Shown piece after piece: positions 2 through 25,869 of a stretch of 64,000 nucleotides of DNA. The notes beneath the pieces are model-generated. The model worked only from the letters and a program-made list of their open reading frames with translations. It was not told the DNA's origin and did no database searches. How positions within the stretch are numbered: the stretch's first letter is position 1; each line of letters begins with the position of its first letter. This stretch comes from Nemania diffusa. Lineage: Eukaryota > Ascomycota > Sordariomycetes > Xylariales > Xylariaceae. The stretch lies in NCBI GenBank assembly GCA_038501195.1, contig JBBPUQ010000004.1, positions 2,232,001 through 2,296,000 on the forward strand, read 5' to 3'. The position numbers and the translations under genes are program-made.

Positions 2-3000
2 ACTCGAACAGGGGCTAGCAATGCTGTAAGCAGAGAGAATGAGGATCTAAAGACAAAACTGAAGATTCTTGAGCGAAAACGAGCGGAGGACCGGGATAGA
101 CTCAAAGAGATGGATCGAATTCAAGAGCAGCGCGATAAGTTTGAGACTATTAACAAGAAGATTGAGAGCAAATTCCAGTCAACGGTACAAGAGAATGTTG
201 CACTACGAAAACAATTCAAGGAGGCAGAGGATAGGCTCGGTCAGATCGAAGAACTACAAGCCGAGCATGACTCTATTATGGAGCTGGCGACCCTCGACCG
301 CGAGATGGCTGAGGAGACAGCCGAGGTCCTCAAGGTAGAGCTCGAGGCTCTGAAACAAAAGGCGGAGGAATTAGAGCTAGAGGTTGAGATTCTGCGAGAG
401 GAAAACACGGAGTACTCGCAAGGAATGTCACCCGAAGAGAGAGCAAGCACCGGGTGGTTGCAAATGGAGCGGAACAATGAGCGCCTACGCGAAGCTCTCA
501 TTCGTCTCCGAGATATCACCCAGGAACAGGATGAGGAGAACAAGGCCCAAATCAAGTCTTTGGAGAAAGACTTGGAAGAATTTGAAGCGATTAAGGAACA
601 GTATCAAATTGCTAAGGAAAAGCTATTGGAGTCGGAGCTGCGAGCTGAGGACCTACGACAACAACTTGACGACAACCTAGGAGCTGAAAATATGATCGAG
701 CAACTAAGTTATGAGAAACTTCAACAATCCGAGCAAATCCAAGAACTCAAGGCTGTGATTGAGGATCTCGAGGCCCTGAAGGAGATCAACGACGAACTCG
801 AAGTCAATCATGTCCAGAACGAGAAGGAGATGCAGGAAGAGCTTGACTTCAAAGATAACATCATCACGGAGCAGGCTCGGCGCGCAGTGGAGAAGGAGGA
901 CAGTATCGGGGACCTCGAATACACACTATCTCGGTTCCGGGAGCTCGTTACAAACCTACAGTCTGATCTGGAGGATATGCGCGCTTCTCGCGCTGTCAAT
1001 GAAGCTGAATCAGAGCAGCTCAATAGTAATGCCCGGCTCATGATGGATCTAAACCAGAAACTCCAAATCTCCGCCGCCAAAACTCAGATCAAGACCATCG
1101 ACCTTGAAATGCAGCGGATGGGTGCTCAAGAAGCTCAACAACACCTGGACATTGTTAAGCTCTTCCTGCCGGAAAGCTTCAACGCCGACAGAGACTCTGT
1201 TCTCGCACTGTTACGATTTACTCGACTATCTTTCAAGGCTACCCTTTTACACGGTTTCATCAAGGAACGAGTCAGCCAGCCACATCCTGGACATGAAGAT
1301 GATGTGTTCGCCGGTTGCGATGTGTTGGATAAGCTGACATGGGTAGCTTCGATGTGCGATCGTTTCGTCAATGGTATCAGCCACTGCTCCTCGGAAGAAT
1401 TTGCCAAGTACCAAGCTGCTTTATATGAGCTCGAGCCCGTAGAACGAGCTTTGAATAACTGGATTGAGGGTCTCAAGAGAGACGAGCTTAAGGAAAAGCA
1501 GTGTTCTGATGAGCTCCAGCGCTCCATTGCTCTTATGACCCACCTCGGAGAAGTTCATATTTCACAAGGACTTGAAAGCTTCGCGGATGAAGTACAGATG
1601 AAGACAATGCTGATGCAGAGTCACTTAGAGTCAGCCGCCAGTGCCTTCGGTGTTACGAAGGAAATGGTTCAGAGAATGGTGCCCGCCAACGGTGACGAGG
1701 ATGAACTTGCTCAACACTTCGCTAGGCGCGCAGATACAGTCATTAGCCAGACGCGCAGCGCTAAAGTGATCGTCTCTAAAGCAGTCCGCTCTCTCGAAGA
1801 TCTTAGAGCGAGATCACTGGCTCTTACCCCTGACACTTTGGAGGTTTTTGAGAGCTGTGAAGCTGCTAGTCGAGAGCTGGGAGAAATGTCTCGTGTCATT
1901 GGTGTCGACCTGCACAAACTCCTTGCTGTAGAGGGGCGTAGCGAACCATTCACGTACCCAGAAGTACAGAAGACTGTGCTCAATACTGTCTCAACCACTT
2001 TTTCATCTTCAGAGTCAGATCTGTTCTCAAGTTATCTTTCTAAGATCCGAACCCTTACGAACCAAGTCGCTGATCTTGCTGCTGTTTGTGCCGACTTATC
2101 GCAGACGCAAGAGTTCGAACGCAGCCCAGCACCGTGGATTATCCGGGCACAAGAGCTCAAGGCCCTTAAGACCATTCCGGTTGATGCTGAAGAAGAGCTG
2201 CGCCACGTCAAGGAGCACTACAACCAGGCTCGTCGGGAGATTGCACTACGTGATGATAATCTCAGTACTGCTACTCTGCGCATCGAAACTTTGGAAGCGC
2301 GTATGCGCGATGCTAATGCTAAGGCCTCTCGGATGTCAGATCTTGAGGCACAGATAGTAGATGTTCAAAGCCAAGTCGATCGTCTCAACAAGGACATCGA
2401 GCAACAAGACCGTGAGGCTAAAGCTCTCGAAGCCGACCGCGACAAGTGGAAGAAGATTGCTGGTGATAGCAGGGCCTATGGCGATGCGACGGACTCCGCA
2501 GGTGCTAAGGCGGGTCAGGAGCGTGCAGTTGCCACTGCCCGTGAGATGGATGCCCTGAAGAACGACATCGCAAACCTGCAAGCTGCTGTGCGGTATCTAA
2601 GAGAAGATAACCACCGCGCACGCCTGAACGACCAACCGAAATATGAGTGGCTCGCCGAGCCTCTGATCAAGCCAATTCCGGTTACGGAACAGAGGAAAGC
2701 CTTGGTCACCGCCGAGGGTAAAGATGTACTAGCAGAGCTCCTAGATATGGCCGCTTCCGCAAGGGTCTATGATTTGCGCTCTCTCCCTAAGGACAAGATG
2801 GCCTGGCGACCTGCGAGGGTAACACCGCAATACCACGCCGCCAGACTTGCAGAGGACTTCGAAACATGGAAGAGTTGGGAGACTTCGGTCGTGCAGAAAA
2901 CGAATGTGATCGTTAAGCAACAGCCGGGCCGCAGGCGGGACCTCGATCCCACGAAGATGAGGAAGGCCGCTGCGAGGCTGCAGATTCGCCTTCCAGATAT

Positions 3001-3091
3001 TGACGGGAAAATGATTGCTGGTAGTCGTGGTGAGGTGCAAATTGTAGGATCCCGGGAATGGGAAGGGTTGCAAGGGCGACTTGTCTTGTAA
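2..3091 (+). CDS. Dynactin p150(Glued)-like subunit, 5'-truncated by the window edge
   Basis: The frame is open from base 2 with no start codon before the first internal Met at 110, so the gene begins upstream of the window. About 1,029 residues are visible, ending at TAA 3089-3091. The first third is long heptad-rich coiled coil containing the dynactin signature LQMERNNERLREALIRLRD. A mixed alpha-helical central part follows, then a second coiled coil and a basic C-terminus. This matches the large dynactin subunit (the Neurospora ro-3 type), which links cytoplasmic dynein to cargo and microtubules for nuclear migration. The N-terminal CAP-Gly domain expected for the family would lie outside the window. 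No intron is needed in this part. The gene converges on the Sec65-like gene with about 400 bp between them. Family assignment is from motif recognition; the coiled coil alone would not prove it. Confidence 0.85.
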   Translation, partial: TRTGASNAVSRENEDLKTKLKILERKRAEDRDRLKEMDRIQEQRDKFETINKKIESKFQSTVQENVALRKQFKEAEDRLGQIEELQAEHDSIMELATLDREMAEETAEVLKVELEALKQKAEELELEVEILREENTEYSQGMSPEERASTGWLQMERNNERLREALIRLRDITQEQDEENKAQIKSLEKDLEEFEAIKEQYQIAKEKLLESELRAEDLRQQLDDNLGAENMIEQLSYEKLQQSEQIQELKAVIEDLEALKEINDELEVNHVQNEKEMQEELDFKDNIITEQARRAVEKEDSIGDLEYTLSRFRELVTNLQSDLEDMRASRAVNEAESEQLNSNARLMMDLNQKLQISAAKTQIKTIDLEMQRMGAQEAQQHLDIVKLFLPESFNADRDSVLALLRFTRLSFKATLLHGFIKERVSQPHPGHEDDVFAGCDVLDKLTWVASMCDRFVNGISHCSSEEFAKYQAALYELEPVERALNNWIEGLKRDELKEKQCSDELQRSIALMTHLGEVHISQGLESFADEVQMKTMLMQSHLESAASAFGVTKEMVQRMVPANGDEDELAQHFARRADTVISQTRSAKVIVSKAVRSLEDLRARSLALTPDTLEVFESCEAASRELGEMSRVIGVDLHKLLAVEGRSEPFTYPEVQKTVLNTVSTTFSSSESDLFSSYLSKIRTLTNQVADLAAVCADLSQTQEFERSPAPWIIRAQELKALKTIPVDAEEELRHVKEHYNQARREIALRDDNLSTATLRIETLEARMRDANAKASRMSDLEAQIVDVQSQVDRLNKDIEQQDREAKALEADRDKWKKIAGDSRAYGDATDSAGAKAGQERAVATAREMDALKNDIANLQAAVRYLREDNHRARLNDQPKYEWLAEPLIKPIPVTEQRKALVTAEGKDVLAELLDMAASARVYDLRSLPKDKMAWRPARVTPQYHAARLAEDFETWKSWETSVVQKTNVIVKQQPGRRRDLDPTKMRKAAARLQIRLPDIDGKMIAGSRGEVQIVGSREWEGLQGRLVL

Positions 3092-3495: not shown

Positions 3496-4404
3496 TCATT
3501 TTCCCCTACCTTTCCTCCCCTTCTTCCCACCACCCTCGCTCCCGCCAATAGCAGGGCCACCCCCTCCACCACCGCCCATGCCCATCCCCTGCAGCATACT
3601 CATCATATCCGCATTCATGCCCGGCATGCCCATACCCCCCGGCATGCCACCGCCCGGCCCGCCCTGATTCTGCATGTCGCGCATCATATCTTTAAACGCA
3701 TTCTCGCTAACGCCGCCTCCCGTCATGGCCGCCGAGTACGCCGGCAACAGCTCCCCCAGCTTCCACCCCCCCGGCACCGCCGGCCGCGGCCACGGCTTGC
3801 CATCCGCATAGAGATCCGCAGCGCCCCCGAGGCTGCCGAGCCCGAGCCCGCGCATGCCCTGCCGCAGCGCGGCCGAGTCGTCGGTGGTGGGGTGCTCGCG
3901 CAGGTACTTGGCGACGACGACGTAGAGGTGGTGCTTGTTCTTCACGGGGTGGCTGCGCGCGCGGGCGGCCTTGAGGGCCACGCGCACGCGCCCCGGGTTC
4001 GCCCAGTCCTTGGGGTGCGTGCGGTGCGCCTCGAACACGGGCGAGAGGTGCAGCGCCGCGCAGGCGTTGGCGATCTCGCGCGCCAGGGGGTTCTTCACCG
4101 CGAGGGAGGCCGACACGCGCCGGCCCTCGGAGCGCGTGCGCGCCGCGTCGAAGTACACGGGGTACAGCATCTGGTAGTCCTTGATGTCGTCGGGCTGCAG
4201 GCCCGGCTGCGGCGGCGCCTGCTGGGGGTGTGAGGGGGGCTGCTGTTGCGGTTGGCGGGTGGGAGGTGGGGGTTGGGAGGGCGCGGGCTTCGTGGGGACG
4301 GCGCGCAGGATGTCGGAGTCTTGGAAGTCGTCGATGTCGCCCTCGCTGGGATCCGAGACGTCGTCTTCGCTGTCGGATACCTCTTCTATCCTGGGGTGCG
4401 ACAT
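3496..4404 (-). CDS. sec65: Signal recognition particle subunit SRP19/Sec65
   Basis: A single-exon 302-residue protein. Residues 1-75 are acidic then Pro/Gln-rich and probably disordered. The SRP19 fold follows from about residue 78 (YPVYFDAARTRSEGRRV, then NPLAREI and HPKDWANPGRVRV), matching the RNA-binding core of SRP19, which helps assemble SRP RNA with SRP54 for co-translational ER targeting. The C-terminal 60 residues are rich in Gly and Met (GMPGGMGMPGMNADMMSMLQ) and end in a basic KKGRKGRGK tail. The coding DNA is markedly GC-rich in the middle, and this makes long shadow ORFs on the plus strand. The ATG at 4404-4402 is followed directly by the expected acidic N-terminus, and no upstream in-frame ATG is needed. 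Confidence 0.9.
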   Translation of the reverse strand: MSHPRIEEVSDSEDDVSDPSEGDIDDFQDSDILRAVPTKPAPSQPPPPTRQPQQQPPSHPQQAPPQPGLQPDDIKDYQMLYPVYFDAARTRSEGRRVSASLAVKNPLAREIANACAALHLSPVFEAHRTHPKDWANPGRVRVALKAARARSHPVKNKHHLYVVVAKYLREHPTTDDSAALRQGMRGLGLGSLGGAADLYADGKPWPRPAVPGGWKLGELLPAYSAAMTGGGVSENAFKDMMRDMQNQGGPGGGMPGGMGMPGMNADMMSMLQGMGMGGGGGGGPAIGGSEGGGKKGRKGRGK

Positions 4405-6728: not shown

Positions 6729-7781
6729 TTACGATGGATTTGGTCGATTGGTATCCTTGTCAGGGGTATGAGTGCGCTGCCATGCGACAAGCCTATCCCA
6801 CCGTCGACATTTGTGGTGGACATTGAAGTCCGCCTTAGATCCCACGGCGACGGTGTCATCCTTGAGCACTAGCATCGGCGTCAGATCAGCATTGCACATG
6901 AGCTGCAGACGCAACGTCTCGATGCAGTGGTCTACATGCATGCGGTCACCAACCGAGTGGTGGCTTGTGACGTTAAGGTCGACGAGCTCATGATTATGTC
7001 CCGTATCTAGCCATTCGCGCATGTGGTCGTTGTAGTAATCTCTCCACGTATACTGTCGAATCAGGTTCTGTCGTCGTAACGTTAGCATATAGGCGGCGGT
7101 GGTAGTTGTATGGAGAGAATCCGGGGTCAAGTTCGTCACGCACCAGGCAGTGTAGTTGATGGAAGACCTCCAACATCCCGCTGTATCCTCGAGTTTCGTC
7201 CGAGTTGATGTGAGCGAGCCTATCCGGAGATTTCCCTAGTCTATTTGGGCCATCGAGGGGGACCTCTACTCCACCAACTAACTCATGAAAATATTAGCGT
7301 ACCCATGAACATGTATCTGCGAAAAAGAGGACGAGCTTACGATTCCAAATTTGGTCCCATGCTGCTTCTAATTCAGGAGTTGGTGGCCCCCGATACTTCG
7401 TCTTGTGGGCGAACTCGTTCTCGAAGTCGGTATCATAATACTCGACGACGCCGTCCTCAATAGCTGGTGCTGTGTAGGATATAAGCTCTGAGAAAACTGG
7501 CCGGTAGTGTAACACTCACAGTATGGATTGACAAGTCGTGTACATGTGAGCTCGTCTGGGCCTCTTATGAGACCATAGAAAAACAACCCAGTACTGATGA
7601 AAGCTAGGATCCATGGGAGCAGGCGAAACATAAATTCGCCATATCGGAGTTTGAGGGGATGGGCTTCTGCCTTCTCGAGATGACCATTCTGGTCAACAAG
7701 GCGCTGTTCTTCTTCGAAAGACTGAGATGATTTGTCTCCAGAGGCAAGATATGAATACCTGAATGCATTGGTGAAGGCCAT
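6729..7781 (-). CDS. UstYa-family (DUF3328) membrane-anchored oxidase
   Basis: Four exons on the minus strand: 7781-7520, 7469-7341, 7277-7144 and 7067-6729 (introns 50, 63 and 76 bp), giving 287 residues. A single transmembrane segment sits near residues 52-71 (FRLLPWILAFISTGLFFYG). The lumenal part carries the family pattern: YSPAIEDGVVEY near 87-98, YRGPP, EVFHQLHC (HxxHC, His170-Cys174) and a second HVDHC (His219-Cys223) followed by LRLQLMC. These paired motifs define the UstYa/UstYb group, which catalyses oxidative cross-linking or cyclisation of ribosomal peptides such as ustiloxin and phomopsin; some members act in non-ribosomal pathways. It is divergent from the dibasic-repeat precursor gene with 1.3 kb between start codons. 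The ATG at 7781 sits in a good context (AACCATGG); an in-frame ATG at 7847 is possible. Splicing restores every family motif without a stop, which supports the model. Confidence 0.88.
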
Positions 7782-9102
7782 GGTTGAAGGTAACTGGCTT
7801 GTCACTGAGCTTGAAAGTGATAGATGTGAAGTTAACCCTGAATGCACCAGGAAAGAAAAAAAGATGAGTGAGTATGTTATTCCAGTGCATTTGGTTGTTC
7901 AGTGTCTTTCATGCCCTCTCGTAATCCTCCAGAAAGACAGAGTGTTAAGTTTTGATCACGGTGTATTCTTTGACCCCCTGATTTATGTCTTCGCCTCCTG
8001 GCTGGGTTACCTCGCAAACTTCACCCTATCCTACGGCCTTCTCGGCGACTGTACTGACAACTCCGGCAATAGATAATCTAAACAACGGCTGGAGAAACGC
8101 TATTTCCGTGTAGTAATTAGAGTTGTAATATACAAAATAGCGGTAGCTGTACCGATGTTCGTAGCACTACGGATTCTATCCGGTAGTTCAGTGGGGAGAA
8201 GAACACCAGTCGGTGTAATCGCGACAAACGCGGTACTAGTCACTGGGGCGTATAGCAGAAAGGCCAAAGTTGATCGTTTTCAGCAGGTGTGAAGACCGTG
8301 ATAGGCAATGGGTCGGGTTTGTATGGGAGCTGAGTGCGCCATCCACTAGCTGATTATCATTTCACTAACCGAGAAAAGAATGAGGATCGTTTCTGTTTTG
8401 GGGTTGTATAAGTCGTGATATAGTTTATTACGTTACCTACGTAACACCTCTTTTACTAGCACTGTCGATAAACCACCAGAAGTGAAAATTGGGTACCTAT
8501 CCTATGCGCTGCTGGCAAAGTGAGGGTCTTTTGTATGCATTGAGCTACTATCTAGATCTTCACACTTGGCCCGCTTCAATGGCTAGTGTTCTGTGAGTGT
8601 TTGCTGATCTTATTGTGAACTGGTAAGTGGTAGACAAGTCGTAATAGAAGTGGTAAATGCTGGCTGCAATCATTCTAATTCGGCACTTCCATCACATAAT
8701 ATGGCGTCTCGTGAGGAGGAGAGCGACACTGACGACCAGTAAACAGATACAAGCCCTAGCTAGCAGAAACATCGTTCTAACTAAGTATTACCTTCGTCCG
8801 AATAGTCGTACGATATTCGTGATCGACTCTCAAGCCACTGGCGATCCCCTCAGTCGGCCTTTGTGGATGTAACGCGCGATAAGTCGTCGCCGTTCGGTGC
8901 TCTTTTCATGACCTCCTGCATTCCTAGATTAATTAAACAGTATTTAGACGTAGCACAATAAGGCCCTCGTGTGAGCAAGAATCGACATATAAAGGGGACT
9001 CATCCCTCCCAGGAAACCTGAAGTTAAGGTTAGAGTACAACCAAATACAACTCATAATCAAGCATACACACATCAGTGCCTACCAAGATAACTTTTATCA
9101 AC
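7782..9102. other. Divergent intergenic region between UstYa-like and precursor genes
   Basis: About 1.3 kb between two divergent start codons, so it should contain both promoters. No third coding gene was recognised. A TATA-like element lies near the precursor side. Confidence 0.5.
8988..8994 (+). promoter_or_regulatory. Putative TATA box of the repeat-precursor gene
   Basis: TATAAAG lies about 115 bp before the ATG at 9103. A CA-rich stretch (about 9037-9072) between them is typical of fungal transcription starts. This is sequence-only inference. Confidence 0.4.
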
Positions 9103-9789
9103 ATGCCTTCTATTTTTAAGTCCACCTTCATGCTAGCTATGGCTGCTACCGCCATTGGCCGCCCACTCCAATCTCAGAATACTCAAACCGGTAAGCAAAC
9201 TTCTCAAATCTCACCTTGTAGGCTTGAAACATGCTATATGACAACTGTACGAGTGAGCAACGGGTCTTCTTACTCACGTATTTTTACAGGCAACTCCGGC
9301 GAGTCTCTTGCCACTCGTAATCCCGCACAGGATTTGCCAATCGCCCTCATCGAGTCTTTAATCGGAAAAAATCGCCAGGGCAGTGCATACGACGAAGATG
9401 TTGCTACTGCCGACCCAACCGAGATTCTTGGGAAACGTGCGGCGGATATTCCAATTGCCCTTATCCAATCTCTCATCGGGAAGAATCGCCAAGGAAGTGC
9501 CTATGACGAAGACGTGGCGGCCGCCAACCCGACTGAAGTCCTCGGGAAACGCGCTCAAGACCTCCCGATAGCCCTCATCGAATCTCTGATCGGAAAGAAC
9601 CGAGAGGGGAGCGCCTACGACGAGGACGTAGCAGCTGCTGACCCTAGCGAGGTTCTCGGGAAACGTGCCCAGAATCTCCCGATCGCTCTCATCGAGTCAC
9701 TAATCGGCAAGAATCGCGAGGGCAGCGCTTATGACGAGGATGTTGCCGCTGCTGATCCTACTGAGGTACTCGGTAGGCGCGGAAACTAA
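9103..9789 (+). CDS. Secreted dibasic-repeat precursor, candidate dikaritin-type RiPP precursor
   Basis: Two exons, 9103-9190 and 9290-9789, give 195 residues. Residues 1-19 form a signal peptide (MPSIFKSTFMLAMAATAIG). After a short linker come four tandem 38-residue units (42-79, 80-117, 118-155, 156-193). Each unit has PIALI, SLIGKNR, GSAYDEDVA and a terminal GKR (GRR in the last). The Lys-Arg/Arg-Arg ends fit Kex2-type cleavage, so processing should release near-identical peptides. Tyr occurs once per unit, within GSAYDED. No Cys or Trp is present, which argues against an alpha-pheromone precursor. With the adjacent UstYa homologue the best reading is a RiPP precursor of the ustiloxin/phomopsin/asperipin kind. 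The actual core cannot be fixed by eye. An in-frame ATG at 9076 is possible, but the one at 9103 starts the signal peptide directly. Confidence 0.85.
   Translation: MPSIFKSTFMLAMAATAIGRPLQSQNTQTGKQTSQISPCRLETCYMTTVRVSNGSSYSRIFTGNSGESLATRNPAQDLPIALIESLIGKNRQGSAYDEDVATADPTEILGKRAADIPIALIQSLIGKNRQGSAYDEDVAAANPTEVLGKRAQDLPIALIESLIGKNREGSAYDEDVAAADPSEVLGKRAQNLPIALIESLIGKNREGSAYDEDVAAADPTEVLGRRGN
9191..9289 (+). other. Phase-1 intron of 99 bp in the precursor gene
   Basis: It begins GTAAGC and ends TTTTTACAG. Its length is a multiple of three and it has no in-frame stop, so a naive ORF reads straight through. Removing it joins the signal-peptide exon to the repeat exon through a Gly codon. The retained version would add 33 residues including two Cys. 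Confidence 0.75.
9325..9780 (+). repeat. Four tandem 114-bp coding repeats
   Basis: Units are 9325-9438, 9439-9552, 9553-9666 and 9667-9780. The encoded peptides are almost invariant, while many third codon positions differ between units. Protein changes are limited to a few places: Q/A-D/N and L/I at the start, E/Q, Q/E, T/A, D/N, T/S, I/V and the last K/R. Confidence 0.95.
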
Positions 9790-10979: not shown

Positions 10980-13900
10980 TCACAGCTCTGCAGTAGCGAT
11001 TTTCTTGGCAGTTTCTGTACTACCGATGCTGGTAATGCTGTTCTGTGTGTCTCGTCTCTTCGGATTTGCTACCCTTCCAAAGCGTGAGGAGCTTGCATGC
11101 TCCTTAGGTAAAGTTCGTCTCTTAGGTTTAGCCATGGTGAGGCCACCATCGCTGTCACTTTCGCTATCCTCATCACCATGTGAGGATAACCGGGGGGAAG
11201 TATTTGTTCCATGGGATAGTATAGTCTGGTACTGCTCATCCACTTTCATTGGAAACCCTTCAACGGGCTCCTTCCCCAACGCCGGTGGAGTCAGTGAATC
11301 TGTCGTGTCTATGAGAGATGGTTGATCAATTGATCCGGGTTTTAGTAGGAAGTCACCTTCAGCATCTGCAGAAACAGAACTGGCACCACTCAGCAATGCA
11401 GGCAACGATGGGTCTGAGCGAAAACTTTGGTGACGTAGATTTTCTATGCTGATGGGACTGGTTACTGCACTTGGGCTGGTTAACGGTGTGCACAAAGTCC
11501 CAGTGGATGCGGAGGTCGAAGTTGCTAAGGTGCCTGCAGTGTCAACCCTAGAGGGAGGTTGTGGGTTCTCCTGAGTAATCTCCTCGTCTGGCGACAGAGG
11601 GCAGGGTGCCATGGGTGCCACAGCCCTGGAGGAGTCGGCATTGCTATGTCTGGCTAGTTCCTTGGTGTCACGGTTCGGTTGCCGGGTCGTGTGTTGCTGG
11701 GCCCGAGAGGAAGACTCTGGAGTGAACGGGTTATATATCCTGGGTAGTGAGATTTTCCCTTCCAGCTGCATGACTCTATGGGATGTCATAGGCCGCCGAT
11801 CGAGTTCAGATGTAGCGAAGTGGTTTTCATGCATGTTTGAGTCGGAGCTAGGATGACTATGCTGATAGGTACGAAGAGCTATGGGAGAGAGGATGGGAGA
11901 CGCTAGTGACGACCTATTCGTTGCATAGATAGGATCGACCGACAAGGGACGCGTGGGTAACTCTATGCTCCCGGGCGCTACTGCGGTGCTGACAGCCACC
12001 ATAGCTTCTGCTCGTTTATCTTCGTTGGCGAACAACCCACGATCAACCGACCTTGATCTGGCGGGGTCATCTTGTGTTCGTACATCGCGTGCTTTTCTTA
12101 GGGAGGCGGCGATTGGATCGCCTTTGATTGTGCTATCTCCAGTAGAACTCGATGACGCCTTCTGCGACTCTTTCGCATGCGCCAATGCTACCTGTGCATT
12201 GCTAACTGATTTGACTCTTACATGGCGGTGATAAAGCAAGCCACGACTGGAAGAAAGTGATGTCGATGAAGACAGTTGAGGCTCTAACCCTGGAAGTATG
12301 TCAAATATACTGGTCATGTCATTAATTATGGGGCTGTGATCCCCTTCTGGAGGAATTGAGTGGTGTCGTGGATAATCCAGGGGCTCTCTAGTTGGAGACT
12401 CATGTGGAGTAGCGCTTACACTCTGAGAAAGGGGATGCTCGCCGTCTCTAAGAGTAGCAAAGTAATCTTCAGGCCGTATACTCTTCCGGCGCATATCTCG
12501 TAGAAGAGGAAACGGGTTCGCACTTGGAGATACCTCGCTAACTGAGCTGGTAACACTACTTGCCGCCCTCCGCCGAGTCTGGATCTGGCTCTCTAGCTTT
12601 TCTGTGCGGCCACTGTGTATCACTTTATTCACGGCCTTTTTGACGACTGAACGTGCTTTTTCCATTAGTGTGAGGGGTACAACTGCGCGCTTGATTTCCT
12701 TCTCGTCCACTTCGATCTTCCGACCAGAAAATCGCCGAGACGGATCGGTTTCATCAATCCATTGACTGACAGGTATGTTGAGATCAGCGACGACCCAAGG
12801 ATGACGCTTGACATCTCTCAATCTAATGCGTTTCTCGGGATTCTTGATTAGCATTTGGTGAAGGAGATCGTGTAGGTCGTCGTCAATGTCCTCATAAGAT
12901 ATAGCATTATCGTCCCTATATGGCTCACTGTTGACGCGGTTGTAAAAAGACGTGGACAAGGGCGAATGCTGCGGATCAACGGGTCGGAGGCGCCGACGTG
13001 GAATATACACTTCTTCCTTGGCGATCTTTTTAAACATTTGAAACTCATCTTCAGCCATAAATGGTATCCGAGCGAATATTAGGCAATAGAGCGTGACACC
13101 TAGAGACCACACATCGATTTGCTCCGAAATTTTGGGCTGTTCGTGGTCGACATCGGTGTAACACAGCTCTGGTGCAAAAAACGCAGGGGTGCCAACAGTT
13201 TTGGCAAGTTCCAAATCATCGTCAAAATCACGCGCCTCGGATTCGGAAACAAGTTCATCAGTCTCGCCTTCGCGGATGGGTCGGCCAAAATATGAGACAC
13301 CAAAATCTGATATCTTCACTCTATGATCCTTAGTCCATAGTAGATTCGCAGGTTTAATATCTCGGTGTACCACACCCTCGTAATGAAGATATTCGAGTCC
13401 TAGAACGGTATCTCGGAAGGTTGCTCGAGCGTCTTCGATGGTGAAGCACGGGACATAAGAGAAATCGTCCGAAAATGGGTCATGCGGGTCATGCGGTTGC
13501 GAATTAAAGTCAACGGATGACATATGAGAAATAATGGAATCAGCCATGCTTGGCGATCTGCCGCGGAATACGGGGTCTTCTTGATAGGCACCATACATCG
13601 TCCCATCCAGAGCTGTTGACGATCCAGGGTTTGAACGCAGAAGGCGGCGTGGCTCCCCCTCTCCCTCGCTCTCGACATCGACATCGACTGACGAAACATC
13701 GAACTCAGAAGGTAGAGGAGTATTTGCACGGGAACCGGATATGACCGATCGGCTCGAGAGGTTTATTGATGCTGCCCTAGACCCGGGATGTGAAGCAGAC
13801 GGAACTGCTGTAGACGGCTGGGCTGTATGATCCCCGTCTCTGCCAAGTGAATACGCCCGAGTATCAAGGTAGTCCTCTTCAGCAGCACCATACTCTATGC

Positions 13901-14820
13901 TCCAAAAGCCAAGATCTCTTGGTGCCTCCTGCATTTTAGCTCTCTTTAACTCCGTACGGGCTCGACGTCGTTCGAGAAGTCGGACAAACGTAGCGTTTTC
14001 CTCCTCTTCGGTGGTGTTCAATTCACCCCGCATCCCCTTTTCAACGTTTCTTCTCTCCCAGGAGCAGATCTTTGGAAGGCCCTTCTTTCGCCAAATCACT
14101 TCGCCTAACTCGACATGTTCCAAGACGACGTAAATCTTCATCAGCTCGGGGTCGTCAATAATTTCGAGCAGCGCAACAACATTCTGGTGACGGATCTTTT
14201 TGAGAATGGCAATTTCTCGCTTTGTCTTGTCTTGAGGGGATGCAGTGACCTTTCCCAGACGACGTGTCTTGGAGAATCGTGGTATAATCTTGATAGCAAC
14301 ATTTTCGCCGGTCTCTAGGTTCCGTGCCAATTTCACCTTCCCATGTACACCACGGCCGAGTTCTTCGATGACTTCGTACTGATTTATTAACTTCCGTCCC
14401 GTCTGTTGGTCGAGATCTACAAGGGCCTTGTGAGTTCTATAACAGTTAGCCATAGTTAGTATTCTGAACAACTTCGCGGTCTCAATGGCGGGCTTCAAGC
14501 CAGGCTGTAGAACGTCTGTCCCGGCAGCCTTTCAGTGCCATCCCCCAACATGACAAGAAGACATGCGTAACTTACTCTCTCACTTTGTGTCCCTGCAGAG
14601 GGTGTAAAAAAGGGCTGCTCGCCGTAACAGTGGCTGGCGTAGGGACATCGGATGCGGAGTAGGGCGGGAAGGCATTGGAACGAAGGCCGGTAGGGCTAAA
14701 TAGCCCCGGGGAGGATATTGGGGTGCTATTTGCTGTTCGCGACGGGATGGCGGGGAGGTGAGGGGTGTTGCTGGTCGTGGAGGGATGCGGACGTTGCTGT
14801 TGAAGTTGATAGGGATCCAT
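10980..14820 (-). CDS. CaMKK/Ssp1-like (SNF1-activating type) serine/threonine kinase
   Basis: Two exons, 14820-14576 and 14436-10980, joined across a 139-bp intron (GTAAGT...TTATAG), encode 1,233 residues. The splice joins HPLQGHKVRE to THKALVD, the normal N-terminal edge of this family. The kinase domain starts at about residue 96 with YEVIEELGRGVHGKVKLAR, has VAIKIIPRF, and shows VHRDIKPANLL near 438-448 and a KISDFGVS activation motif. About 200 residues of low-complexity insert separate the hinge (VVLEHVELGEVIW) from the catalytic loop, which is common in fungal members. After the kinase domain (to about 700) comes a long Ser/Pro-rich probably disordered tail. Relatives phosphorylate Snf1/AMPK or CaMK-type kinases in calcium, carbon and stress signalling. 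Without the intron the ORF would begin at 14498 with an unrelated leader, so the spliced start is preferred. Confidence 0.9.
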
Positions 14821-17800
14821 AACGAAGAGGGAGTGATTGGAATCGTGGTGATGTGGCGGTGGTCGTCATTCTGAGGTACGGGTGAAGCATCGCGTCGTAT
14901 TGGGGAGCGCGAGGCGATACATAGAAGAGGGAACGGGGTGTCAAGAGGCCATTGTTGGAATACCTAGCATAACCCGGCACAACTAAACTTAGATCGAGGT
15001 AGCCGAAAAATATGCTCAAGAAGCGAGGACACAAGCGAGGTACGGAGTATATTGCGAAAATTCAAGTCGATAAAGTCTATTGCTGTAGGTTGAGGTCCGA
15101 TCGAGTACCTAAAACGGGAATACGTAAGTAGAATAAGAACCGACTCCGAGAAATCGAGAGATGATAAATCGGACGGAGTGGGCAAAGTGTGCTTGGTCTC
15201 GTCTCGTCTCTGGGTCCTCGGAGCATGAGGGAAGAGGGCCCTGAGGTCGTAGTAGGTGCACAGTATGTGTACAGTATATGCCGTCTTTTGTACCTACCCA
15301 CCACACCACATGTCCGTGCAGCAGACTCCACTTTAAGGTGTTGGCGATTGAGTAAGCCGTGCAAGCATAAGCGGATCCCTACAGTACTTACACACACACA
15401 TACCTGTGTGTACCTTGACTGATAAGTGAAGTATGCTGTAGAGTAGCGCCGATAAGCACTGTACCACTGCACACTACGAGAAGCGGCTGCGATCTGCTCT
15501 GTAGCTGCATATGCCCAGCCCTGCCGAGCCCCAAGAAGCCTGTTTTGCCTTTGGGAGCCAATGGCGGTTGTGACGGCAGCGAGAACGTACCCAGTCGGGT
15601 CAACGCGAGGGAGTTAGGGTACAGAATACAGGTACAGCAATCACAGTGTGTATGTATCATCGTGCTAACAAAAGTGCAGGCTTTTTGTTCTAGACAGGTA
15701 GGATGGTAATAATTAATATATTAAAGTACTAATAGATGGCAATAAGTAAATAGAAATGCTTACCCTAGTATTGCAAACTTCTTGACCTGGTTGAAAAGTT
15801 TCTCTAGAAAATAAAAAAAGCTTTTTTTCATAGCCTTTCCACGTCTGTTTCACCCGATATTAACCTAATAGCTCCGTATCACATCCCTTCTTTACCAATG
15901 CTGAGTCGTTCAACCATGAGACATGCGACATGAACTATTCCGGTCGTGTACCATGTGTTGGCAACAGCCTTACCACTTGCTTCCTCTATGGGGGTTAACT
16001 CTATCCCAAGCATGTCATTTGTGTAGCCATAGGTGGTATAAGCGACAGCAGAATTTATTCTACATTAATTCCAGCCAAGAATCCCCCCCCTCGGTCCCAT
16101 TTGGTACTATAGCTAGGTTTTATCAGTTAGGCACTGAGAAGACGTAGCATACTGTATATGCAGCTATAAATCATCTTCGCCAACAAGAAGATCGAGGAAG
16201 TATACATAATCGTAGCTGTATGGCAATGCATGTTTGTACCAAGACAGAAAGGCAGGCAGCAAGAATACATGTAGGTAAGGGCAGACGCAGGCAGGGTTAA
16301 GAGCAAGGATGTAGGGTTACTGAGATAGTGCTACAGTGTTACATAGCTACATATACACTGTGAGTAGATACCCGCTGTACTAGACCTTAATTATACTAAG
16401 GCGTTGTTAGCTCTCCGCTATCCGGCGGGCCTAAGGTACCACCACAGTAGCGTGGTGAAGAAGTATCTACGTGTACCTACCTAAGATAGCTTATCACTAT
16501 ATGCTGTAAAAGTCCGTATGCGGCCAATTCACATCTACCTATTAGCTAAGGTGTTCTAATCTTAGCCTGTCTTCAGAACGTCACTCAGTAAGTATACATA
16601 ACGTACTATTAAATTCTATTCTACCTATACATAATAGCAGGCACTTAGAGCCCAACAAAAACCCCTACAGATGACAAGCATGCTGGCTTGCACGGCAATT
16701 GTGCCTTGTAGTCGATTATCCTATCACAGTCTAGTTGTTATCATTGACACATGACACCAGTTACGTGTTTTAATCACCTATAGACATTTATTTCAACTAT
16801 ATATTTAGGTGTGTATCTACAAGATATTACACCATAGCGCACATACCTACAGTACGATACGAGGATGTGGCGAATACGATGGATCATGGAATGGTACGTA
16901 GGTGGTGGATGGTGGTGATGGTGTATAGGATGTAGAAAACGGCCTTATGTTAGGTACTTATCATGAGGGGTCCTAGGAGGCATACTTGGCTGAACATTGC
17001 CCCTCGTACAGTGCTCTCCATACCTACTATGTATGTACATGCGCATACTTACAATCCCTACCCTACAAAATAGGCATACATACCTACAACAAGAAGGCCA
17101 CGCAGACACTGAACTAACAGCGGCCCGTATCTACTATGTATGTACTTACCTGGCACTGGATAGTTCAGTTGTATCCACCTCCCTACTGAATCTGCTGTCA
17201 TTTCATGGCGAGTGTTGCCCACCTCGTCCCAGGAGGGGATTGTGTGAGGTGTTGGGGTCGTCATTACAGACCTAGCACTTCTAAGGTCTGTCCACTATCG
17301 TATGATGGCTCGCTAGTTGGATAGCCTGAGCATGGATATGAAAGACTTGTCACGTCACACAAGGACCACCCTGTCAGGTACCTTCACTAAAAAAGTGACC
17401 ATGCTGTTCACGTCATATTCAAGTACATATGTACCTAAGCTACCTGACTTGGCAATATGAACGTTGAAGCTGTACACAGCCTTGATCTTCTTAGACATGC
17501 TATATTGTAGTTGTAGTATCTATCTACACACACGCATGGAAGGCAGGATATATCTAATACATGTAATGTTTTCCATGCTAATACTGTGTAGGCTGATTGC
17601 TACTCTCCCAAATGCTCCCGAGCCTCGCAAATTCCACCCTTCAATGATTGACCGCTATTTAGCCACGGTACACCACACTGTTTGTTAGACATGGATTCCT
17701 CGCATACAGTAAATGGACTACCGCAATCGACATCAATGGTTCTATGCCTTCGGATAGGTATATAGCGAGATAGGTAATAGGTGTGATGAACCATACAGAA

Positions 17801-20800
17801 CACTCGACGTGAGTTAGATGGCTCACGATGCCCTGTAAGCGAAGGGTAATTGATAGTATACCTACGCGGTACATATCTGCCAACGTACTAGTAGGTACAT
17901 ACCTACGTACAGAACACGCTCCCGCCTATCAGAGGAAGTTATTGCCGTTATCATAAATTACAAAATTGGCCACTTAAGATAAGACAAGAAGCTAGCTACG
18001 CAATATGCAAGGGACATAGTCTACCTGGTTACTGGTTACTGGCTGCGAAAACGTGTTTGGGTGCTTATTCATCGTACCTCGAGTATACCTATCTTTTACA
18101 GCGTGGTACTGGGATACCATGGAGCACTGTAAGATAAGAGAAGATCACGTCAGCGTGAAAAAGGAATGAGGCTCTTGAGGGCTTACATCTTCATCGACGT
18201 TCCAATATCAAGGTTCGAAAATAGGATTCGTTATGCCCCTGGCTCCCACCGATAGGTAGGCTGTGGCGGCGTTATGAAGCATCCAGCAGCGTCACGTATT
18301 ATGGCCAGGCTCTAGACTAACTCGTCATCTTCCAACCCGGAAGGTCTACAGCATACAGAGTAGATACCAGACGAAACCACGTCCCTCTCAAACAAACGTC
18401 TAGCTAGTTACTGACGAACATAGTTACTGACGCCGATAAGCGCCGTCACTGCCTCTATTCCTCTCTTTCTATCTTTTTTTTCTCTCCTTCCGCGCACTCC
18501 GATTTTGTCCTCATTCAGATTATCCTGCCTGCAGGCCCAAGGGGGCTGCATCGAAGCGAGTCTGGACCGCGGGGTCAACGTATCTAAAGCAGTGTTCCAA
18601 ATAGCAGAGGCGCTCACGATGCCAATCAGGCCGCACCACAGCAGCGAACTAATTTTGGAGTCGGCATCACACAGCTAGAAGGCCCAACCAGTTGCTACAA
18701 GGGTGCACCGCTACACATCAAAACGTACTGGTCCAAGCCCGAAAGCGGAGTCGGGAATCGCCATACCTACTGACACTAAAGGTAACAAACAAGAGTCGCT
18801 AACCTCGTTCGAGACACGAGTCTACCTATTTTACAAAGGTACCTACCTACCTAATTGATCTACAAGTAGGTATGTACGAAAACAAAAGAAGTGCAATATG
18901 TCAGGAAAAGTTGATGAAGGTCATGGAATTAACAGGCTGCACAGTGATTGATGGTTGAAACTTCAATGTTTGCATATACGTACATATTTACCTACCTCTA
19001 CCTACCTAAGGTATATGAAAGGGTCGGGTGACAACCAATCATCGTTCTGCCTGCGAACGTTGTTGTTGATAAGCGGCATATTTACATGCCGACTTGGTTG
19101 CAGGGCTTCTCTGCATTCTGCCGGTGCACATCACATCCTTTGCAAGTGTCTGTTTCCGACTTCTCTTTTCCCCCACGATGTATCACCCTCTATGGTTTGC
19201 ATCATTGGGCACGTACGCCCGCCTATCTAGGCATATAGCAGGACAAGCCGACAATTTCGCTAATCCGGTTTTGATGACTGGCGCCAATGGCGAGAGTGTG
19301 CATCCACAAAGGCCGGACTTGAACTACGGCCAAATACCCAAGTATTGCAGGTATTGCAGGAGACTAAGATTCCGGATTCTAGCCCGTGGTTTGCCGTTTA
19401 TGCGGTGCGCATTTAGGTCTGGCGCTGCGACGATGAGCATCACGATGCTGCTACCACTAGCACTAGGCATACTCGCCCAGCCCCTTGCTAGGGAACCGAC
19501 GGTCTAGGCCCTTGGGCTTCCAGGCTTGCTTCAGCCATCGTCGTCACCCTGCAACTGTTGCTGTTGCACAGCATCGTCAAATCAGGATCCGCACAGTGCT
19601 GTGCCTGTGTTATCTACTGCGTACTTTAGCAGTTCGTCGGAGCGGCATCCTTAGAATTTGCACTTCATTTGCTGCTGCAAGATAGATTGGTATTGTACTG
19701 CGTAAGACGCTGAAAAACATGCATTTCAACGAACGTTGTGCCCCTAACATTATGCCCTCGTACAATGTAGCGTAGCACTTCAGGTCTCCATTGGAAAGGA
19801 TTGTAACTGAGGCATTTGCGGGATGCCATGCGACCGCATTTTAGCGACAGCAACGGGAGCAAGGTTCTGGGTCCGGGGTCGAGATGCTGCACTCTTTCTT
19901 TTTTCCCTTTCTTTGTGATCCGCCGCCGCAAGCGACAGCCACGATACTAGAGTTGCCGGGGGGGGGGGGGCTTTTTGACCCTTCTGTACTAACACTCCCG
20001 TGCGAGACATAGTCAATATGAAGGAGCCATCGGCCGTGTGTGACGACTCTACGAGTACTTAGATAATCGAAATAGAACGAGTGAGGGGCTCCAACTGCAC
20101 GTCTCTTAAAAGCCCATTAATATGAGGCGTGGTACCAACGCAGGAGCCAATAAAGCATGTCTCCAGTATACATGGCCATCCTCCAACCCAGAAACATAAG
20201 CATGCAGCCAGGGATACGGCATTTACCTGTCAGCGTACTTGACATTATGAGCAATATGAGCTGTCAGATGTGCACAGAGTACGATACATTCATCATTTAT
20301 TGGATGGTACCCAGACTCGACTCTACGTCTGCCTATTACGCATAGAAACAGGCACACTGCTGCACTGTTACAATTATAGCCAATCGATCATGCACCCATT
20401 CTAATTGCGATAGTCGTCGCTGTCAACTCTTAGCAGTGAGATGAGTAGCATTTTCGTCTGAGTTGTTGGTTGAGGTTGAGATTGATAGATCTCGGCCCGA
20501 GTTTTATTTCATAGGTAAGACACACTAGAGTAGCCCCGTTATACCGAATCGCTGTAGTATACCTATCATTTTCTCTCTGCAGGATCGAGCCTGCAGAGCG
20601 GAAGGATGGCGACCACTGGGATTTTCTAACGTATCCGTGCACTCTTACCAGGTACAGGCATGCGGTTCCATCAAGGGTTTCTACATATGTACAGTACCTA
20701 CGTAGGTAAGTACAGAATATTTCCCTACTACCTAGTCCACTACCATCGCGGCCACTAGTCGAGTACTCTGTAGTTCACCCACAGTGTATATTCGCATATA

Positions 20801-23800
20801 TAAACTACCAGCCTTGACAAGTCTAGGTGTCTCTATGCTGCAGTTTAAACAACAGCGATGATCTGGTAAAGAGAATGTTCAATGAGGCTTCATGGAGCGT
20901 CAATAGATTACGGTTCCATATGTGCGCCAGAGCTTGCATCATAAGGTGTATAGTGCCGGCGCAAGAGCTCCGTTTGGGGCTACCCCAGACCCAATATTCA
21001 AAACCCCCTGCTTCCCACGGGAAGTGCGGAGGAACTAACATCTTATATCGGTTCTTCTAACCGCGATATGCTAAACGCGGTGTTGGGATGATTTATCGTA
21101 TCACTCGGCCGACTTGGCCACAACACGGCCGATTGAAGGACGCCACTATCTAGATCGTTGTTATCACAGGAAAGGTAATTTAAGTTGTTTCTCCATATTG
21201 GGTCTGTTGAGGACTTATCTTGCGCAGGGATAACTCCTTTATTTATATATATATAGCATATACTGTACCTAGTTCCAAAAGGACAGGGTACGTGACGATG
21301 TAATTCTTACTCAACTGGATGTGGAAAGCCAATACCATACCATTCAGTTTCTCTGAGTATAATAATATCTGCGATTTAAAGAACACTATGATAGAAAGAG
21401 TAATTCAGAAACTAGAGCGAGCTCAGCTGAGCCCACCATTGTTTTAGTTGTACAGCGTACGGCCTATCACGACTCTTAGCTGCACCACCGAAACTCATCT
21501 AACACATGCAGACGACAGCCTAGGGACACCCCAAAAATCATAAACGATACACGATTATTAGTGAACCCCACACCAACTCTCTCAGCTCAAATACGGCTTA
21601 TACATGCATCCATATCTACCTCGGGAATATTGCAATTGGTACCTGATGGAAACGAGATAACCCGACGGACGTCGCATGTAGGCAAATAGGAAGAATATCT
21701 AAGTCGACACTAACATGAGACCTATCACAAACTACATTACAGTATGTAGTCTTTCAGGGGTGCCGGCTCCGTTGTCTTGGACCGAAAGGATGTAAAGGAT
21801 GCTCCGAACACTCGGCCATACAGTATATCTACTGTACTTTATTACCTGCACGTCATCCTACAGTGCCCACTAGGGCCGACCGTCAAACCAATAAATTGCT
21901 ACAAGTATTATGTACAGTTCTGTAACCAACATACATAAGTGGTACAAGTATATGCTATTAGAAATGCAAGCCTATCCAAATCCGGCTGCGAGCCAAGCCC
22001 CACACGTTACTGACGCAACACACATGTATTTGTCGCTTGAATACCTACATACCTACTGTAAGTACCTAAGCTCACCTTAATATTCGTCAATAGATACTGT
22101 ATGTACGAGAAGTCGGAGCCTAGAGTCTGCCTATTTTGGAATTTGTCAAGCCACACAAGCACCCTCTGAAGGAATACGAACGCCTTATCAGTCGCTATCT
22201 TAAACATCTCCAACGGCTATGAAGACAATATATGTCTAACATGTGATACGCCAAGCCCTTTCACTCAAGAACGAGGCAGAAGTGTTGGTGGGCAGAATAG
22301 GTATTGTCAGTCCAACGATGGGCAAACAGTCTTGAATAAGGAGACGCCGTCGACACTCTATAAACCGGTGGGTATTTTTATCAACAACAATAGACTATAG
22401 TGTACCCCGTCATCCAATATATCGTCACTTCTAGCTCGATGCTAGCTCGAACGCGGAATCCATATCTCCACTATAGATACGGTAGCTACTGTATCTCAGG
22501 GCAACTCGCAAACATATCGCGATAACTTCGCATGTCTCCACATACATGCCTCCCCTGAACGCCCTCTACTTCCGAAATACCGGGAATAAAACTCATCATT
22601 CGTTTATAAAGGCGCGCAACGACATGGGTCCCCGGAAGCGTAGACAAGCGTAATTCCTTCTCGCGCTTGTCCGCATCGCACCACCAATGAGACAGTTCTG
22701 CTGCCGCCTACGGATATAATACATATGTAGATACCTACTACATACGTGGTTGGCAGTGATCTCCCCCGCAATCTGTGGCCGCTTCCCACTCATATGAACT
22801 GCCGTTGAACTGTAAAAGCGACGGAAACTTACGCTCGAAGACCCATCCCCGTTTTTGCATGAAAGTAACTCGCCGATAGTTAGGGTCGCCGAGTCACCTC
22901 CACCACAACCTAGTCCTTCCTATCTGGCGGGCCGCCCAAGGGTAAATGCGGAGAAGCGCCGTAAACATGAGTTCATATCATGTTGCCATTTAATACTACA
23001 CACTAGATACTGCGTGGGGCATGTTGCGCTTTTTCTCCAAAAAAAAAAAAAGCATGTCTCACTCTGGCCCTGTAGATAATCCCCTCAACCCCAGATCTCC
23101 ACAGGCATCGCCCATCGCGGCCAATCCTGCGTCCTGCACGGTATACCCACTCCCTACATCCTTAGCTACGGGCCGCGTCTTTTTTCATGGTGGCCTCCTT
23201 CTCTGTGTGTCTCCTTAATGGTGCTAGTACCGTAGGTAAGGTTTGTCTTGAGACTTCATCACGAGCCCCCGCTGTCGAATTGGAGGGTAACACTCACCTC
23301 CTGGGAGGCACTTGGAATGACGAAACGTTGTATTACTGGGCGAATGGGTTCGCCGCCCGCTGAACACGACCTCACATCAAAACACCCAACCCACGGGATT
23401 GTCAACCCTGCCAATGAATATGAGAATAAGGGCCAAGTTCGGTAGCACGTACATCCTGCATCCTATTCGATACGACTACAACGTTATCATTTCCTAGGCC
23501 CGGTGGTTCAGTTTGCGACGTCATTAGGCCAACAACGAGCGCAACTGTATTATATTATCGTCGATGATAACGCCAGGGTTTAGCGATGTAATGAACTGAC
23601 TCCCGCTTAAGATATGATGGAGGGATGGTGGTTGTAATCACGGCGGGAAAGCTGTAATTATTGTATTGCCGTTCTCACGACTTCCTTGTAGCTATATTGC
23701 ACACTGTGCCTGCAAGCATCTGTATCTTCGGATTCTATTGTATTGGCTGTCTCCGGATCTTGAGAGATGCCCCCGGCGCCCGAGAGATAGGTTTTCCATA

Positions 23801-24100
23801 TCCTTGCATCTTCCTAGGCACTCTTTTATCACCGGGCAATTCCACCGGGCGCATGACGGACAGGACCGGTCTGATGGTATGATATGCCTTTGAGAAAGGC
23901 TAGTAAGCATGGAGAAGCAAGGCAGAAGTGGGTTGTATGATGTATTGTTAGATGTAGAGTCGTATGTTTCTACTGCGTGGTTGCTATAATGGATGTGTCG
24001 GGATGGGAGGGTTTGAGTTGCAATGATGTCAGCGTCCATAATCCGCCGCGTGACTTGCCACATGATACTAACTCCGGGATTCTAAGGCCACGCGCTGCTG
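14821..24100. other. Long gene-poor region with TACCTA-type motifs
   Basis: More than 9 kb upstream of the kinase without a convincing gene. Short ORFs occur in all frames but none has a recognisable family, a signal peptide with a sensible partner exon, or a splice pattern. TACCTACCTA-like motifs recur on both strands (for example near 18840, 18990, 20697 and 22045). Minor features include a duplicated TAGTTACTGACG (18405-18416 and 18421-18432), G13 at 19958-19970 and A13 at 23039-23051. Confidence 0.55.
19958..19970. repeat. Homopolymer G13 tract
   Basis: Thirteen consecutive G residues followed by CTTTTTG. Slippage or assembly error is possible here. Confidence 0.9.
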
Positions 24101-25869
24101 ATAAAGGGTGGATTGCCTGTTAGGAAATGGGAATTAGTTGAACATGAGTTGGAAAAACCTGCTTATGAAACATTTTGTTGACTTCTCGAGGACATGTTGT
24201 AGTTGACCCCCTTACATCCAAAGAGTTGCATGTAGACGCTGTTTTTCTCGATAGAATGACTTTTTCCCCAATAATTTCTCCTACTATGATTTTGTGATAA
24301 TAAAGGTTATGTGTGGACTTATTAGCTAATTCATATGCTTATTTATTTGAGAAGAAAACAGGTTTATTGCTTATTCTATATTAAACACTGAATTATCAGT
24401 AACATATCACATACAAGGGCAGCTAAAGCAAATTTAGCAACATCGAAAGTATTTATGCTATCGTCTTCAATAATATACGGGAGTATATCTGTCCACAGTC
24501 CTTTAGATCCTTGCTGTACTTAAAAGCGTAATTTTCGAACCCGCACTACAGAGGTTATTGATGCTGACCCTTATTTATCCACAACAAGGGACAAAACCTC
24601 AAGGCACATTTTAATATATAGACTATTTATACGAATGAAGGGGAACTGGTGTTCTAGAATGTCTTCCAGGATCCATTCTCTAAGCCGAGCCTACATTAGC
24701 TAATTACGACAGAATCCAATGATATCTTAGTCAACGGTGATGTTTTACTGTTTTGGGTTCAAGATAGATGGAACCTTCACAATTTATCTCCCTCACTAGC
24801 CATATAAGTTGTAATCCAACCTTTTTAAAAACAGCTCCGGGTTTCAATGAGTCTAAATGTCTTACTGCGATGGCCTTCATATAAACCTGAGGTATTAATA
24901 GCAACTATTATGCAGCCATTAACGCCTAATTCGAATACTGGGGACCGGCGCAAAGACTACAAAACAACCTGGCAATTTCACAGACCTCTAATTTCTTCAT
25001 GTTTCCGGCTGAAAACGGCACCATTTTGCCGTTAGATCTCGTATACATGTTAGTGATTAAGCTCTCTCTAAATTTTACTTTTAGATCGTGCTCTAAATTA
25101 CCATTATTCTCAGAGTCAAATGGAAACACTTTGTCGCAACTTACGTCGAGCTCTTCTCGAAATTAAAAAAGAAAGTTCGGAATTACATTAAAAGTAGCTA
25201 TTCTTTTATAATTTGAGTGGTTTTTGAAGATGGAACTTTCAAATGTTATAAGATTATACATTCATTAAAAGAAAGCCGCTACAAGGAACACCAGAATAAG
25301 AAATAGATAAAAACTATGCGAAGTCAAGAAAAGAGCTCTTCGTAGTTGGGGCTATTTATCGCCCTATGAAAAGAAATCTGTTAAACATAGTCTTGAAACG
25401 GAATGAAAGAAACATGATCGAGGGGTCGGAGCATAAAGTATTTATCGAGAAATGTCAACCTCAAGATCTAGCAATGAAAACATAAAGCTTTAAGCTTATA
25501 ATAAACAACCGGAGCTTTTAATATGATTAAGGTCTGCTTAACTACCTTTAAAACCTGCTTAGCAGCTAATATCGGATATGTTTTTTAACAGATCAGGAAA
25601 ATGACGGGCAGGATCACCATCGCTACAAATTGGTTGCCTGGATAGAGCCCGGACATATAGTGTTCATCCTTCCGCTGCAGCCGGTTAGGTTATTACTATC
25701 AAGCGTAGAACTGTCCCATAAAGCTGGACCCGATGCCCGAGCGCGGCGTGTGCCTTGTCACTAAGTCAAGAAGATCTGTCCGGCCAATAGACGTAACCGA
25801 GGACCGGTGGAAGCGGCCGTTGTCTGGACAAGGTTATGACAGACAGACATGTCCTATCTCTAAATAACC
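24100..25869. other. AT-rich block, possible degraded repeat
   Basis: This stretch is clearly more AT-rich than its flanks, with many TTAT/TTAA words and only short ORFs. Such blocks in filamentous ascomycetes are often transposon remains altered by repeat-induced point mutation, but I can read no transposase or polymerase motif, so that origin is only a possibility. Confidence 0.4.

Follow-up and report, generated by a model that had tools for sequence, protein, structure and literature searches.

The 64-kb stretch of DNA analysed here (the window; C4:2232001–2296000 of a 55.6-Mb assembly in 16 contigs) carries a precursor gene and a UstYa gene, head-to-head and 1,321 bp apart. The two probably form a dikaritin-type RiPP locus, in which a single UstYa protein would modify a peptide from the C-terminal half of the precursor's units. 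Such a locus probably makes an undescribed modified peptide through a generally known kind of route. As far as sequence can tell, the two-gene RiPP interpretation of the initial annotation is supported: both genes are intact and family-typical, the units are constrained, the pairing recurs in relatives, and the Tyr of the units and the Val/Ile that follows it are invariant. Further support comes from the precedent of asperipin-2a and from Kex2-repeat arrays at other UstYa loci of the genome.

Organization of the locus

As first described, the UstYa gene is complete, divergent from the precursor gene and some 1.3 kb from it (Table 1); its introns are all GT..AG. The encoded protein scores 169.2 bits against the PF11807 profile (cut-off 25), has a predicted membrane anchor (a hydrophobic stretch, residues 54–72) and contains both HxxHC motifs by which UstYa/DUF3328 proteins are recognized. 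In an alignment of 46 UstYa sequences, comprising the window protein and 45 relatives picked from the 120 matches listed, H219, D221, H222 and C223 are invariant, and H170, H173 and C174 are conserved in at least 90% of sequences. No relative of the protein was found among solved structures (best E 0.98).

Table 1. Features of the gene pair and its surroundings, in window positions
Feature	Position	Strand	Details and basis
Dynactin-domain protein	110–3091		Left of pair; Pfam scan of ORFs
SRP19	3496–4404		Left of pair, flanking; Pfam scan of ORFs
UstYa/DUF3328 gene, 287 aa	6729..7781	-	Exons 7781–7520, 7469–7341, 7277–7144, 7067–6729; spliced model, PF11807
Second HxxHC motif HVDHC, residues 219–223	6924..6938	-	Exon 4
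First HxxHC motif HQLHC, residues 170–174	7147..7161	-	End of exon 3
Divergent intergenic region shared by both genes, 1,321 bp	7782..9102	.	From the two gene models
Precursor gene, 195 aa	9103..9789	+	Exons 9103–9190 and 9290–9789; ATG at 9103, stop codon ends at 9789; homologs found
Hydrophobic N-terminus, probable signal peptide, residues 1–19	9103..9159	+	Hydropathy; homologs' N-termini similar
Unit 1, residues 42–79, C-terminal KR	9325..9438	+	Spliced translation
Unit 2, residues 80–117, C-terminal KR	9439..9552	+	Spliced translation
Unit 3, residues 118–155, C-terminal KR	9553..9666	+	Spliced translation
Unit 4, residues 156–193, C-terminal RR	9667..9780	+	Spliced translation
Protein kinase, large gene	10980–14498		Right of pair, flanking; Pfam scan of ORFs
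Berberine-type oxidase	31.7–33.3 kb		Pfam scan of ORFs
P450	about 40–41 kb		Pfam scan of ORFs

The precursor gene is interrupted by an intron at 9191–9289 (GTAAGC...CAG), preferred among nine frame-keeping alternatives for its donor, the best of them, and for the continuity of the N. diffusa homolog across the junction. The probable signal peptide, already proposed in the initial annotation, shows a maximal 11-residue mean hydropathy of 1.91, from residue 9. The four units reported there, spanning residues 42–193, are each exactly 38 aa long, and at the DNA level Tandem Repeats Finder describes the array with a period of 114, 3.9 copies and a score of 395. These units agree with the repeat part of the KEP definition of PMC7329392, namely at least three tandem repeats, each of at least 8 aa and none longer than 100 aa, between dibasic sites; the definition also includes a SignalP signal peptide, which is probable here from the hydrophobic N-terminus. 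A repeat detector found no second array of this type in the six frames of the window. A match of the precursor to NMT1/THI5 (PF09084, 26.7 bits, cut-off 20.5) was judged to be due to chance; it covers residues 103–155 and spans a unit boundary.

A search in which 8,000 candidates were scored returned seven homologs of the precursor, the best being from Nemania diffusa (96% identity across 79% of the query). Searching with a profile yielded 15 rows at E ≤0.1; P0135 (E 0.03) was dropped and the other 14 were used, eight of them from named genomes.

Among the 40 window ORFs (of 97 listed) scanned against Pfam, there is no tyrosinase or methyltransferase, and neither a transporter nor a reductase was seen adjoining the pair. 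No second UstYa match occurs in the 64-kb window. The absence of tyrosinase, methyltransferase and second UstY gene agrees with the initial reading. The only tyrosinase on the precursor's contig among the matches listed lies about 3 Mb away, at C4:5261001. A larger classical cluster is unsupported by the 40 ORFs scanned and by the tyrosinase matches listed.

Beyond the kinase gene, a stretch of about 11 kb (14500–25800) shows no Pfam match in the ORFs scanned, and GC drops to 0.40 at 24001–26000. To the right of this stretch follow an esterase, a histidine phosphatase, the berberine-type oxidase, a PD-(D/E)XK-family protein, a DUF3425/bZIP-like protein and the P450. The PD-(D/E)XK assignment comes from two ORFs at 33870–35299 (-) that jointly match PF20516 (PDDEXK_12; 132.5 and 38.2 bits).

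Selection on the repeat units

In pairwise comparisons, the window units share 70–77% identity in DNA versus 82–92% in protein, and the pooled pS and pN values are 0.837 and 0.073. Where residues are identical, 121 of 197 codon comparisons show a difference; three random models predict 126, 132 and 135, and the synonymous sites are accordingly saturated. Saturation together with the low pN argues that the array is old and that the peptide is maintained by selection. A chance repeat is ruled out, because only prolonged selection would keep the protein constrained while synonymous sites became saturated; selection favouring synonymous divergence between units, for its part, is unsupported by the same codon counts.

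The N. diffusa homolog has three units. Its unit 2 has six differing positions, the first and the last two carrying the letters of window unit 3 and the middle three those of window unit 2, a pattern consistent with unit loss through recombination.

Likely position of the core

For the core, whose position was initially left undecided, conservation in relatives favours the C-terminal half of the unit, the one with the Tyr. The window precursor and 14 homologs were split at KR/RR, and 37 pieces with a motif starting AY were retained; this selection left aside signal/pro pieces, truncated ends and, in P0002 and P0004, five interleaved units of another type, and it gave no separate count to one AYGED unit in P0007. 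A-Y, as part of the filter, is found in all 37 units, and so is Val or Ile at Tyr +4, which the filter did not require; the units are related, so that these counts are not independent. A basic residue lies 3–5 positions ahead of the motif's A in 36 of the 37, and at the same place the remaining unit (P0129) has a true KR that separates off its first half, which together hint at a cutting site. P0002 and P0004, both JGI proteins, alternate the family unit with a second type, APQID...VKR, that lacks the AY motif.

In relatives, mean identity is 0.40 before AY versus 0.83 after it, and the latter is higher in 34 of 36 pairs, although this contrast is partly built in, the dividing point itself having been picked from conservation. 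Nine of the 15 sequences entered this comparison; the near copies P0001, P0002 and P0004, the distant P0132–P0134 and the cut piece of P0129 were left out. The C-terminal half, AYDED[VI]...EVLG, is likely to be the core: relatives retain the Tyr half but have other sequence in place of PIALI...SLIGKNR. What counts against such an assignment is that a recognition sequence would look the same.

It is indeed possible, if rather unlikely, that the core of the same RiPP system is the hydrophobic half (AQDLPIALIESLIGKNR), with AYDED...EVLG serving as the recognition sequence of the oxidase or protease and UstYa acting on aliphatic residues. The variable first and conserved second halves seen in relatives would suit a core that varies next to a recognition part that does not, an idea stated in PMC12048977. 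Moreover, UstYa proteins are also reported to hydroxylate, chlorinate and desaturate, so that the reaction is not readable from the sequence. However, the two halves of the window units are under equal constraint (identity 0.87 and 0.88), the first half contains no aromatic residue in the window, and in P0129 it is severed by the true KR.

If the Tyr-bearing half is the core, the precursor would enter the secretory pathway, where Kex2 cleavage after each KR/RR would yield four 38-residue units. Cleaving these units again, at the KNR basic residue, would then release a roughly 19-residue acidic peptide, [QE]GSAYDEDVAxAxPxE[VI]LG, with the KR trimmed off by a general carboxypeptidase. This peptide would be oxidized by the one UstYa protein, which has the double HxxHC site and would be anchored to the membrane within the same pathway; the reaction would most likely couple the ring of Tyr to the Val/Ile four positions on. 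The calculated monoisotopic masses of the linear C-half peptides are 1950.869, 1905.859, 1893.812 and 1907.827 Da, each 2.016 Da lower with a cross-link, and those of the whole units without KR are 3782.921, 3679.906, 3725.863 and 3738.895 Da. The length of the units, which puts most residues outside any small ring, counts against this reading.

Recurrence of the pair in relatives

Conserved pairing in other genomes had been suggested as a check, with precursor homologs never lying beside UstYa genes as the outcome that would speak against a joint locus. That outcome was not seen. In five of the eight named genomes with precursor homologs, a UstYa ortholog lies on a contig equal in size to that of the precursor (120 of 133 UstYa matches compared), contigs of equal size being taken as one contig and adjacency being taken from gene tags. 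Tags are consecutive in two of the five, X. grammica (EKO27_g9904 with g9905; contig 31,710) and Xylariales sp. No.14919 (134290 with the next gene tag, 134280; contig 235,779). The others are X. digitata (contig 44,153), Nemania sp. NC0429 (JGI numbers 400930 and 400928; contig 983,566) and, as a weaker case, Xylariaceae sp. AK1471, whose contig (1,289,270) carries two other UstYa matches. As for the remaining three genomes, among the matches listed (120 of 133) there is no UstYa from N. diffusa, only P0048, on a different contig, from X. palmicola, and only a distant match, again on a different contig, from X. grammica F5X98.

A tree was built from 108 UstYa proteins, namely the window protein and matches of at least 230 aa, a limit that left out P0024 of NC0429. 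In it the window protein groups with those of Nemania abortiva and N. bipapillata (100/96), and it falls together with the other four linked proteins within one clade of 18 rows (100/98). From this grouping and the best precursor match, the fungus is most likely a Nemania (Xylariaceae). The linked rows do not form a clade on their own, and for 13 of the 18 rows no precursor was found. Both points, along with the three of eight genomes that gave no pairing, count against our preferred interpretation.

Three distant precursors from ENA contigs (P0132, P0133 and P0134; E 1.9e-8 to 6.3e-4) have the unit end AYQDxVDAVxxPAxVLGKR and a different N-terminus.

The recurrent pairing also bears on whether the precursor might be an ordinary Kex2-processed repeat protein that releases linear signalling peptides, the UstYa neighbour being unrelated or only an occasional modifier. 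Constraint on the whole unit would suit a signalling peptide, and most KEPs have no DUF3328 neighbour (78% overall and about 70% in Ascomycota; PMC7329392). The same survey reports 5.25 KEPs per ascomycete strain and a DUF3328 neighbour for 30.1% of ascomycete KEPs. We nevertheless find this explanation improbable, given that the pairing recurs in relatives, that an excess of DUF3328 genes beside KEPs has been published, and that yeast-type and fungal pheromone KEPs are reported to be almost always without such neighbours.

Comparison with known systems

The initial annotation took a precursor with a UstYa protein to be the core of dikaritin biosynthesis in ustiloxin, phomopsin and asperipin alike. 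For asperipin-2a this holds, the reported core being the pair plus a transporter and a reductase, but the ustiloxin and phomopsin routes need a tyrosinase as well. Dikaritins were first defined by a tyrosinase, a methyltransferase and several DUF3328 proteins, and the window locus has neither the tyrosinase nor the several DUF3328 genes in a cluster; in the broad sense, which asks for a KEP next to a UstYa homolog and for a cyclized product, it has the gene pair and would belong among them if the predicted product is cyclized. Judging by gene content, it appears to be a minimal dikaritin type, closest to the asperipin-2a locus of Aspergillus flavus (aprA, aprY, aprT and aprR). In both, a Kex2-repeat precursor goes with a single DUF3328 protein and a tyrosinase is lacking, and the A. 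flavus protein, AprY, has been proposed to close both rings of asperipin-2a. In contrast, the asperipin-2a core, FYYTGY, has several aromatic residues, and its locus also includes the transporter and reductase.

Ustiloxin and phomopsin precursors have a signal peptide, which is probable here too, and KR-cut units, and their routes employ UstYa-type proteins and join Tyr to a beta-branched residue, as we propose for the window. However, their YAIG/YVIP cores follow ED, and they use a tyrosinase and two or five DUF3328 proteins, whereas the window pair has one UstYa and no tyrosinase close by, and the Val/Ile of its units stands at Tyr +4. As was noticed at the outset, the units do not resemble the YAIG or YVIPID cores, and Tyr is their only aromatic residue. 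Each unit has one Tyr, surrounded by SAYDEDV with no Y-x-I core (EDYxI motif); its acidic flanks are unlike YxI or FYYTGY cores, a point against our preferred interpretation.

The epichloecyclin precursor GigA is similar in having four repeats, Kex2 sites and an internal Tyr, but its unit and core sequences differ, a distinction drawn without direct alignment. Lichen RiPP clan R2 also has a single ustY homolog without other dikaritin tailoring genes; it differs by its acetyltransferase genes, and the published account (PMC12048977) found no repeat precursor there.

A text search with sequence fragments did not find the precursor family in print: among the matches listed, EVLGKR occurred once, in a packaging paper, and AYDEDI in medical papers. 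Xylaria and Nemania are absent from the main texts of two KEP surveys, to which this search was confined; a published match elsewhere in them is possible, for example in the motif of KEP type G-6, under which Hypoxylon and Monosporascus are listed. According to a survey covering Hypoxylaceae and X. hypoxylon, a ustiloxin-like cluster is present in Hypomontagnella species, H. rubiginosum and H. pulicicidum.

More speculatively, we suggest that a single UstYa without a tyrosinase might link Tyr to the Val/Ile at +4 in the acidic peptide of about 19 residues, that the two-gene unit might be a long-kept trait of Xylariaceae, that the exchangeable hydrophobic half might give a second set of peptides, and that the system might have been overlooked by surveys because many homologs have one or two units. 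Several precursor homologs do have only 1–2 units, which is below the KEP threshold of three repeats. A ring between Tyr and Val/Ile at +4 would, if true, be of a type outside the five dikaritins that a 2022 review counts, even though fungal UstYa proteins are numerous (PMC10512285). With only two genes and a defined candidate core, such a locus would offer about the simplest setting in which to ask what UstYa does without a tyrosinase. Low-repeat homologs could be sought by a pattern of a basic residue, 2–4 residues, AYxx, V/I at Tyr +4 and VLG before KR, and this two-part unit pattern could reach homologs missed by surveys that demand three repeats.

Other UstYa and repeat loci in the genome

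The genome contains 52 UstYa match pieces, which by hand count represent 29 loci. A Kex2-repeat array was found at 5 of the 19 other UstYa loci examined (10 kb around each) by a detector that needs at least two similar units in one open frame and so misses intron-split arrays or those with fewer units. The 19 loci, out of 28 others, were covered by 20 stretches, two of them at one locus, and the negative comparison was the rest of the window only. These arrays (L014:7197–7817; L019:6787–7188; L021:8099–8995, the same array being seen in L022; L025:8031–8318; and L027:2495–2884) have units of unrelated sequence, all with Tyr.

A larger or dispersed pathway that includes the pair and uses other oxidases, such as the berberine-type oxidase or P450 inside the window, seems very improbable: 26 tyrosinase match pieces do occur elsewhere in the genome among the matches listed, but both window oxidases lie about 22–31 kb off, past the large kinase gene and the stretch in which the scanned ORFs gave no Pfam match.

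At two other UstYa loci, a tyrosinase match lies within a few kb (C9:2506228 and C3:4022895–4023625), and the corresponding regions, G000:C9:2504630–2510023 and G000:C3:4017965–4023625, show a more classical dikaritin-type layout. A further repeat protein, of 205 aa, is encoded at L011:1411–2028 (-; G000:C3:4400445–4400909) and has at least 11 units of the type AEVSHLNEDVAKR; the UstYa match nearest to it is about 50 kb away.
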